DNA of 64,000 bases from Campylobacteraceae bacterium. GTDB taxonomy: Bacteria > Campylobacterota > Campylobacteria > Campylobacterales > Arcobacteraceae. The DNA lies in the NCBI GenBank assembly GCA_013215945.1, contig JABSOM010000014.1:1-64000 (forward strand). Direction: 5' to 3'. This document shows positions 43,735 to 46,566 of this stretch, piece by piece. The position numbers were made by a program, and so were the translations under genes. The notes below the pieces were generated by a model that saw only the letters and a program-made list of their open reading frames with translations, did no database searches and had not been told where the DNA came from. Each line of letters opens with the position of its first letter. Position 1 is the stretch's first letter.

Positions 43735-44748
43735 TTATGACTGTTTATTTAGAAGTTTGTATTCATAAGCACAGCTAATAAAATGTTCAATTAAACAATG
43801 ACTTTTATCTTTTAATGCAGAGCGTTCAGGTTGAAAAGCTGTGGCAATAAAAAATCTGTTTTCTTTTATTTCTAAGGCTTTTACTTCTTTATTTTTATTC
43901 ATAGCTACAAGTGTCATTGCAGAATTATTAAATATGTGCGCATACTTAGAATTCAAAACATAATTTCCTTCAAATTCTTCTTTAATATGCTGCTTGTTGT
44001 ATATTTTTTTTAAAAAAGAATTATTAGATAAAAAAACATCAGCTTCTTTTTCTTCTGTAATAGAAGGAAGTATAGTAAACAGTGGCATACTTGCGTCTTT
44101 GTTCACTTCTTGATGTTCTGCATTTTCATAGTCCAATTCATTTCGTGCAAATTCAATAGCCGTATATTGGTATCCTGCACACGTACCTAAAAAAGGGACA
44201 TTATTTGTACGTGCAAAATTGATAGCGTTTAAAACACCTTGCATACTTTGATAAGGACTAGAAGGTGCACACCAAATAGCATCAAATTTTTTTAAATGTT
44301 TAATATTTACACGTCTGGTATCAATCCATGAAAAATCAACATCAATCTGTGTTTTACTGTAGGATAAAGAAAAAGCTTGTTCAATACTAATATGAGCCGT
44401 AACTTTTTCATTATAATCACCAATGATTGCTATTTTTACTGTTTTTGGATTGTTCTTTTGATTTTCAAATTCTTCTTGTTCTTCTTTTACAAAATGTGCA
44501 AGTATTATTTTGTACAAGTCATGGATTAAAGTACTTGCAACTCCATATTTTACTGCCAATTCGTTTTTTGATTCAAGTATTTCTTTTAATCGATTAGCAT
44601 CTTTTATTTCTTGCAAACTTTTTTTAAACTTTGCTGCTTCTTGTACATATAAAGAACGTTTTGCAAGAAGTTGAACGATTTTATCATCCAGTACGTCTAT
44701 ACTTTTTCTTATATCTTTCAGGTTCTTGCAATTTTTTACTTCAAACAT
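43735..44748 (-). CDS. Chorismate mutase domain fused to a CTP-synthase-C-terminal-like amidotransferase domain
   Basis: Residues 8-90 are an AroQ-type chorismate mutase: RKSIDVLDDKIVQLLAKRSLY, then VQEAAKFKK, then LIHDLYKIILAHFV. Residues 102-337 resemble the class I glutamine amidotransferase half of CTP synthase, with KIAIIGDYNEKVTAHISIEQA and the nucleophile-type Cys190 in LGTCAGYQY. The catalytic His-x-Glu motif (HPE) is replaced by Gln306-Pro-Glu in AFQPERSAL, so ordinary glutaminase activity is unlikely. It matches the family annotated as CTP-synthase C-terminal-region-related (seleno)proteins, with an added mutase domain. The first domain could convert chorismate to prephenate. It is separate from any aromatic operon here. 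Confidence 0.8.
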   Translation of the reverse strand: MFEVKNCKNLKDIRKSIDVLDDKIVQLLAKRSLYVQEAAKFKKSLQEIKDANRLKEILESKNELAVKYGVASTLIHDLYKIILAHFVKEEQEEFENQKNNPKTVKIAIIGDYNEKVTAHISIEQAFSLSYSKTQIDVDFSWIDTRRVNIKHLKKFDAIWCAPSSPYQSMQGVLNAINFARTNNVPFLGTCAGYQYTAIEFARNELDYENAEHQEVNKDASMPLFTILPSITEEKEADVFLSNNSFLKKIYNKQHIKEEFEGNYVLNSKYAHIFNNSAMTLVAMNKNKEVKALEIKENRFFIATAFQPERSALKDKSHCLIEHFISCAYEYKLLNKQS

Positions 44749-44802: not shown

Positions 44803-45537
44803 TTATGACAAAATAGAATATTTTTCAACAATTCCAATTATATTTTGCGCTGTTTCTTCAATATTTTGTTTTTTAATACGAACACTTGTGCCAGATATCC
44901 CAACAGCAGCTATTAAAATATTGTCTTTATTAAATAAAGGAACCCCAATACAACACATAGAATCTTGAAATTCACTGTTATCTATTGAATAACCTTTTTC
45001 TCTAATATTGTTTAAGTCCTTTTTTAAAGCTGCTAAATTGGTGATTGTATTATTTGTCCATTGTTTTAAACGCATCTTATTTAAATCATAATTTCCAAAA
45101 GCTAAAATAGATTTGCCAAGCGCACTTGAATGAACAGGAAAATATAAACCAATATTATTTCTTGTTTTTAAATCGCGATCTGAGCGATCAATTTGATTTA
45201 AATACAATACTTTATTATTGTGAATAATGCCTAAATAAGCACATTCATTGGTAAGAGAAAAAATATCTTCCAATAAATTTTGTGTATTTTTAACCAAGAG
45301 CTCAATTTTCGTATTTTTAATGGCATTGTTTTCCAAATCACAAGCAATAATTTCATTGCTGTTTTCTAAATACTCAATAAAATTCTCATTTTTAAGTGTC
45401 TGAAGTAGTCTAGACATAGTACTTTTGTCAATACTCAAACGTTCACATAAGGTTTTTGCAAGTATGGGTTTAGAATAAGAAAGAATCTCTTTATAAAGTA
45501 TTAATCCTTTACTTAAGGATTTAATTTCTTTTGGCAT
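44803..45537 (-). CDS. IclR family transcriptional regulator
   Basis: The N-terminal winged helix (LCERLSIDKSTMSRLLQTLKNENFIEYLE, about residues 33-61) and the C-terminal effector domain (LNQIDRSDRDLKTRNNIGLYFPVHSSALGKSILA) are complete at 244 aa. It may control the neighbouring pfpI-like and mutase-fusion genes on the same strand; the effector is unknown. Confidence 0.93.
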   Translation of the reverse strand: MPKEIKSLSKGLILYKEILSYSKPILAKTLCERLSIDKSTMSRLLQTLKNENFIEYLENSNEIIACDLENNAIKNTKIELLVKNTQNLLEDIFSLTNECAYLGIIHNNKVLYLNQIDRSDRDLKTRNNIGLYFPVHSSALGKSILAFGNYDLNKMRLKQWTNNTITNLAALKKDLNNIREKGYSIDNSEFQDSMCCIGVPLFNKDNILIAAVGISGTSVRIKKQNIEETAQNIIGIVEKYSILS

Positions 45538-45564
45538 GTATAGCCTTTTTGATTATTATAAGCA

Positions 45565-45584
45565 AAGTGTGATTAAACACACTT
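45565..45584 (-). terminator. Hairpin after the DJ-1/PfpI gene
   Basis: On the minus strand AAGTGTG and CACACTT form a 7-bp stem with a 6-nt loop, 10 bp after the stop of the PfpI-like gene and before the iclR start. The following sequence is only moderately T-rich. Confidence 0.5.
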
Positions 45585-45593
45585 AACTTAGGT

Positions 45594-46157
45594 CTATTTA
45601 AGAAGTTCGTGAAATTTAGCCAACCATTTAGGGTGTGCAGGCCAAGCAGCTGCTGTTACTAAATTACCATCAACATGTGCATCTTCGAAACCAATATCAA
45701 TCCACTCACCACCAGCTAAATTAAGATCAGGAGCACAAGCAGGATAAGCTGAACATTTTTTATCTTTTACAATTTGTGCTGCTACTAGAACTTGAATACC
45801 ATGGCAAACAGAAGCAATGGGTTTGTTTGCATCATTAAATTCATTGGTAATATCAAGTACTCTTTGCTCTAAACGAATATACTCAGGAGCACGACCACCA
45901 GGGATTAATAAAGCATCATAATTTTTTGTATTTACATCATCAAATGTAGCATTCAAAGCAAAGTTATGTCCAGGTTTTTCTGTATAGGTTTGATCCCCTT
46001 CAAAATCATGAATAGCTGTTTTTATAGTATCACCTGCAACTTTATTTGGACAAACAACATCTACTGTATGTCCCAACATTAATAAACATTGGTAAGGAAC
46101 CATAATTTCATAATCTTCAACAAAATCTCCTGCAATAATCAAAATCTTTTTACTCAT
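45594..46157 (-). CDS. DJ-1/PfpI family protein
   Basis: The 187 aa carry LIPGGRAPEYIR (84-95) and the nucleophile elbow SVCHGIQVL, with Cys118-His119. The acidic partner is Glu17 in EDYE. The family includes proteases, glyoxalases, deglycases and chaperones; the exact activity cannot be stated. The next gene upstream is NIPSNAP, 103 bp away. Confidence 0.9.
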   Translation of the reverse strand: MSKKILIIAGDFVEDYEIMVPYQCLLMLGHTVDVVCPNKVAGDTIKTAIHDFEGDQTYTEKPGHNFALNATFDDVNTKNYDALLIPGGRAPEYIRLEQRVLDITNEFNDANKPIASVCHGIQVLVAAQIVKDKKCSAYPACAPDLNLAGGEWIDIGFEDAHVDGNLVTAAAWPAHPKWLAKFHELLK

Positions 46158-46260: not shown

Positions 46261-46566
46261 CTATTGAAAAATGGGCTTAAAAAAACTTCTCTCATAAGAA
46301 AGAATACACTTTGTTTTTTGGGCATAATCAAAGGCTTCAAGGCATTCTTTATGCTTGAAGGAAGCATTTCTATATGTTTCATACAAAGCAAAAGATTCAA
46401 AAGTAAATAAAGCCAAAGCCACATTATTTTTGCCTTCGCTGGGTAAAAAATAACCATGATGAACGCCTCCAAAACTATTGACAAGAGGAATCCATAGTTT
46501 TGCATAATGTTCAAATTCTTTCATTTTACTGGGATCTATAATATAATTTAAATAACATGTAATCAT
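46261..46566 (-). CDS. NIPSNAP family protein
   Basis: The 101 aa fit a single ferredoxin-like NIPSNAP barrel: MITCYLNYIIDPSKMKEFEHYAK, NSFGGVHHGYFLPSEG, FESFALYETYR. Function of bacterial members is unknown. AAAGGAAT precedes the ATG at 46566. It is followed by the PfpI-like gene on the same strand. Confidence 0.85.
   Translation of the reverse strand: MITCYLNYIIDPSKMKEFEHYAKLWIPLVNSFGGVHHGYFLPSEGKNNVALALFTFESFALYETYRNASFKHKECLEAFDYAQKTKCILSYERSFFKPIFQ

Follow-up and report, generated by a model that had tools for sequence, protein, structure and literature searches.

The gene at 43735-44748 on the minus strand of the window (the whole 64,000-nucleotide stretch of Arcobacteraceae DNA that was analysed) combines two known families in a new architecture. 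We read its product, with a probability of roughly 0.55, as a genus-specific fusion in which a PchB-like helical domain, serving mainly to dimerise the protein or to bind a ligand, is joined to a Cys-dependent enzyme of GATase fold that is not a glutaminase. The gene and the parts of it that are discussed are as follows.

43735-44748, minus strand: two-domain fusion gene, an open reading frame of 337 residues with an ATG start and a 91%-identical fused orthologue (L121)
44479-44712, minus strand: AroQ/PchB-like helical domain of chorismate mutase type, residues 13-90 (PF01817, NF005475, PchB in the PDB)
43768-44439, minus strand: CTP-synthase-glutaminase-like domain of NF004836 type, residues 104-327 (246.5 bits, position in the family clade, fold match 2vkt)
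44179-44181, minus strand: codon of the nucleophile Cys190, in LGTCAGYQ (this Cys is present in all 89 homologues aligned)
43831-43833, minus strand: codon of Gln306, where CTP synthase has its catalytic His (87 of 89 homologues have Gln)

Architecture of the fusion gene

The gene is confirmed as genuine and the observation of a fusion stands. A Shine-Dalgarno-like AAGGAAAC is located a few bases 5' of the ATG, and an assembly artefact is unlikely because a second species of the genus carries the 91%-identical fused orthologue, which has 339 residues. The initial annotation described an AroQ-type mutase domain joined to a CTP-synthase-like domain, and both were recovered by profile. CM_2 (PF01817) was matched at 55.3 bits against a Pfam cut-off of 27 and Pfam GATase, at residues 121-324, at 41 bits against a cut-off of 22.8. 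The NF004836 score falls just under the NCBIfam cut-off of 260 bits; for comparison, a standalone member of this family (L046) scored 291.8 bits. The best CM-type NCBIfam match of the mutase part was isochorismate lyase NF005475 with 77.9 bits, below its cut-off of 126, and PchB was found among the PDB sequence matches of the fusion protein.

The AlphaFold2 model places helices at residues 10-40, 46-68 and 71-96 of the N-terminal half with low confidence (pLDDT about 51-74) and gives the C-terminal half a GATase fold with pLDDT mostly above 90. In a fold search with this model, the glutaminase domains of CTP synthases were nearest (2vkt, E 1.2e-21). The modelled protein therefore resembles CTP synthase (PyrG) in its GATase-domain fold but is without the synthetase domain and the catalytic His, and the genome contains a separate full-length pyrG of 542 residues. 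No solved structure of the NF004836 family was found by sequence or fold, the strong scores being those of CTP synthases only among the matches listed. A comparable rare and lineage-specific fusion of an AroQ-type domain with another enzyme is the exported chorismate mutase-cyclohexadienyl dehydratase, in which the joined enzyme catalyses the following pathway step (PMC10520331), whereas the partner domain observed here has no known link to chorismate.

Occurrence and genomic setting

The family gene was observed in all four genomes of the window genus but not in any of the 100 other Arcobacteraceae genomes. Its frame is open in each of the four, two of which are cut at a contig end. In these two (G445 and G446) the gene start is missing, with the N-terminal domain mostly present in G446 and only its end left in G445. 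Outside the genus, no other NF004836 match above the level of CTP synthase was found when 397 genomes of the phylum were searched. When 84,980 species genomes were scanned, the best 80 relatives included a single fused one, L040, which is a named copy of the locus in G446. Apart from it, the relatives inspected over their full length are standalone proteins of about 230-265 residues, and those closest to the genus but outside it carry no fusion. Searching all the loci fetched, for the matches listed from the scan, for a mutase domain gave no other fused gene. Furthermore, no mutase gene was present within about 6 kb of the standalone members examined. Among the genomes and loci covered, the fusion was thus found in one genus only and is not the family trait for which the initial annotation had proposed to look. 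Some Pseudomonas proteins appeared to be fused, with matches starting from residue 26, but their genes encode 254 residues without a mutase domain and the extra match is a separate upstream piece. A search by DNA similarity gave no relatives in E. coli. A family member of 33% identity was also observed on a contig listed as viral (L167 3001-3732, IMGVR_UViG_2711768183_000004).

In the maximum-likelihood tree, the genus forms one clade (support 99/97) inside the NF004836 family, which is separated from CTP synthase with support of 100/100. Two other Arcobacteraceae genera were found to carry PchB-like domains as standalone proteins about 100 residues long, with 43% identity in one genome and 30-36% otherwise. 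From these distributions, the N-terminal domain probably comes from within the Arcobacteraceae. The C-terminal, NF004836-type domain probably originated outside this family and was acquired laterally, because it was not seen elsewhere in the sampled phylum. The fusion would then have arisen in one genus by the joining of a standalone PchB-like AroQ domain to this acquired protein.

As a separate observation, the standalone PchB-like gene of some Arcobacteraceae genomes lies directly before a gene that, by our own reading of its sequence, we take to be transglutaminase-like. In another genus of the family (L142-L145) the two genes overlap or abut, and in some of its genomes the transglutaminase-like gene carries an acetyltransferase-domain extension.

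The following neighbouring genes of the window were considered.

44803-45537, minus strand: IclR-type regulator (IclR_C, 124 bits), 54 bases upstream of the fusion gene
45594-46157, minus strand: DJ-1/PfpI-family protein (TIGR01382, 177.5 bits)
46261-46566, minus strand: NIPSNAP-domain small protein (PF07978, 54 bits)

The IclR and PfpI genes were rejected as functional partners. They form a conserved adjacent pair in 7 of the 7 other Arcobacteraceae genomes read at this place (L160-L166; window 44803-46157), where the fusion is not present, and the gene order of G397 and G337 matches that of the window with the fusion gene missing between the hydrolase and IclR genes. Since the pair occurs without the fusion, it provides no evidence on function. 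In G446 the fusion gene is located elsewhere in the genome, beside genes which we take to be pyrB and pabB; the PabB of the window genome is supported by a profile match. An attempt to read a pathway from the neighbours at 36 diverse family loci, where gene calls were simple ORF picks, was likewise unsuccessful, as only scattered GNAT, LysR, glyoxalase, AHSA1 and transporter genes were observed.

Two recurrences were noticed beside family genes. In 32 Pseudomonas loci (including L072 and L105), a small gene resembling antibiotic-biosynthesis monooxygenase (ABM) lies directly downstream of the family gene. NIPSNAP-like genes are located near two unrelated family members, so that besides Pseudomonas the NIPSNAP/ABM type recurs at L036 4710-4965 and L077 3059-3439 (a Methylobacter plasmid and a Rhodospirillaceae genome) and at 46261-46566 of the window. 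A small protein of this type is possibly a functional partner of the NF004836 family. The second recurrence was seen in Enterobacteriaceae (L034 4991-5843, L097, L114, L033, L089 and L118), where the family gene adjoins DUF523 and/or DUF488; DUF523 is itself reported as a new selenoprotein in PMC12013277.

The GATase-like half and its family

The initial annotation noted that the nucleophile Cys190 is kept and that Gln takes the place of the catalytic His. Both points were borne out, as Cys190 lies in its LGTCAGYQ motif and the F-His-P-E of CTP synthase corresponds to F305-Q306-P307-E308 of the fusion protein (AFQPE). The family-wide comparison that it proposed was made with an alignment of 91 sequences, including the window locus itself, of which 89 cover the site. 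While Cys190 is universal, the position of the catalytic His is occupied by Gln in 87 sequences, by Val in one and by Leu in one; homologues with an intact His and glutaminase activity had been named as evidence against that reading, and the His was seen in 0 of 89. Because Gln is the rule across the NF004836 family, Gln306 says nothing special about the fusion, of which it had been considered a peculiarity. On this alignment, it is a hallmark of the family.

In place of the Cys-His-Glu triad of class I glutamine amidotransferases, the fusion protein has C190, Q306 and E308. In addition, Arg470 of E. coli CTP synthase presumably corresponds to Asn262, by our own residue count back from His515. 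Since the His general base is Gln nearly family-wide and the equivalent of Arg470 is Asn, the C-terminal half is most likely not a glutaminase.

Other residues common to the family are His119, Trp159, an SPY motif, His195, Glu214, Cys229 and Cys261. Most of them differ from CTP synthase, Glu214 being common to both families. The window protein agrees with NF004836 proteins in its full-length domain match, in Cys190 and Gln306, and in His119, Trp159, SPY and Glu214, but it differs in its sub-threshold score, in the replacement of His195, Cys229 and Cys261 by Tyr195, Ser229 and Gly261, and in its N-terminal mutase-like domain. Cys229 and Cys261 are each Cys in 86 of the 89 homologues, and across the fused clade they have become Ser and Gly or Ser respectively. 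In the standalone members, the frequency of these two residues suggests a metal or disulfide site, which would have been lost in the fused clade.

A selenocysteine form of the NF004836-type family with the motif GxUxG is documented (PMC13188914) and is also present in the deep-Sep work (PMC12013277), in agreement with the initial annotation. The redox or thiol role that was derived from it for the Cys could be upheld only in part: the loss of both Cys229 and Cys261 means that a redox relay through those two is not available in the fusion, whereas a single-thiol role is possible. The literature searched assigned no reaction to the family, and no publication on the fusion or on PRK06186 was found. 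Most likely, the C-terminal half has remained an enzyme or a thiol-reactive binder, working through Cys190 on the GATase nucleophile elbow.

The mutase-like half and the proposed roles

For the N-terminal half, E. coli chorismate mutase and PchB served as the reference sequences of the alignment, and they agree in kind with the PDB matches. The AroQ residues R11', R28, K39, D48 and R51 (E. coli numbering) are kept in the window protein as R14, R31, K42, D50 and R53, while the positions of E52 and Q88 are occupied by Leu54 and Glu89. At the Glu52 position PchB carries Val, so that both proteins are aliphatic there, and lyase activity has been linked to an aliphatic residue at this position (PchB Val55; PMC12329711). 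The fusion protein thus shares with PchB and AroQ-alpha mutases the three-helix arrangement, R14, R31, K42, R53 and the aliphatic residue. It differs from them in having Glu at the Gln88 position, in Asp50, which is as in the E. coli enzyme where PchB has Ala, in its GATase-like partner domain and in a genome where isochorismate synthase was not found. In the sister protein L040, Arg14 is changed to Lys, Lys42 to Gln and Gln306 to Leu, and Arg53 is lost. Loss of mutase residues, which the initial annotation had named as a ground against its reading, was therefore seen for R14, K42 and R53 in the sister, while the window protein keeps the five residues but is changed at the E52 and Q88 positions.

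When the window species was compared with its 91% relative (G000 and G444), nonsynonymous changes were counted at 17 of 236 sites in the mutase half and at 17 of 579 in the GATase half (p = 0.011), which is a rate about 2.5 times higher in the mutase half. The corresponding dN/dS values are 0.98, based on 4 synonymous changes and with most replacements conservative, and 0.19; for the same pair, the neighbouring genes gave 0.13 (IclR), 0.09 (PfpI), 0.05 (NIPSNAP) and 0.05 (DUF2860). Because of the small number of synonymous changes and the mostly conservative replacements, we read the constraint on the mutase half as relaxed rather than absent. By these substitution counts, it is the least constrained part of the fusion gene.

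A second CM_2 domain is encoded in the genome by a 358-residue frame on contig C4, which is probably PheA. Two proteins carry PF00425 and their best matches are the anthranilate synthase TrpE and PabB, so that no recognisable isochorismate synthase was found in the genome. A lyase would therefore be without substrate unless this was supplied from outside. The reaction on an aromatic precursor that the initial annotation envisaged is disfavoured by this metabolic background together with the low constraint on the mutase half.

It is conceivable, though doubtful, that the protein is a true bifunctional enzyme with a working chorismate mutase or isochorismate lyase whose product, or a related aromatic, is acted on by the Cys half. 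The retention of R14, R31, K42, D50 and R53, the lyase as best CM-type match, the aliphatic residue at the PchB Val55 position and the conservation in the 91%-identical species would agree with such an enzyme, but the missing isochorismate synthase, the separate CM_2 gene, the residues lost in the sister species, the fast change of the mutase half and the absence of pathway genes nearby all argue against it. A more specific form, a two-step enzyme with a salicylate- or prephenate-like product of the PchB-like domain being modified at the Cys190/Gln306 site, is highly unlikely; if true, it would show what class of substrate all NF004836 (seleno)proteins act on.

AroQ domains tune some DAHP synthases, and the mutase-like domain might similarly regulate the Cys enzyme by binding chorismate, prephenate or an aromatic amino acid. 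The ligand-binding arginines are kept in two species while strict catalytic constraint looks relaxed, which would suit such a role, but the ligand-binding residues R14, K42 and R53 are lost in L040 and we consider this explanation improbable. Another possibility is that both halves of an acquired gene are losing function and that the gene is bound for loss. The absence of C229, C261 and H195 from the window protein, the Q306L change and mutase residue losses of the sister and the differing places of the gene within the genus point in this direction, whereas the dN/dS of 0.19 in the GATase half, the open frames in 4 of 4 genomes and the retention of Cys190 and His119 make such decay quite unlikely.

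In the fusion of a helical domain with a Cys-dependent enzyme that we prefer, the N-terminal half is most likely mainly a dimerisation module, a role that is proposed because AroQ-alpha domains are intertwined dimers (PMC12329711). In the window species, it perhaps also binds a chorismate-like dicarboxylate. As judged from sequence, mutase or lyase catalysis by the fusion would probably be weak and dispensable, although the window protein and that of the close relative retain R14, R31, K42 and R53, which makes catalysis possible and counts against the preferred explanation. The Cys domain would carry the chemistry of the NF004836 family and the helical domain would mainly assemble the protein.

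The fusion itself is a lineage-specific oddity and the wider point concerns NF004836. This is a widespread bacterial family where the nucleophile is kept, the catalytic His is lacking in nearly every member examined and a selenocysteine form exists. The list of family residues (C190, C229, C261, H119, H195 and Q306) provides a direct handle for testing its function.
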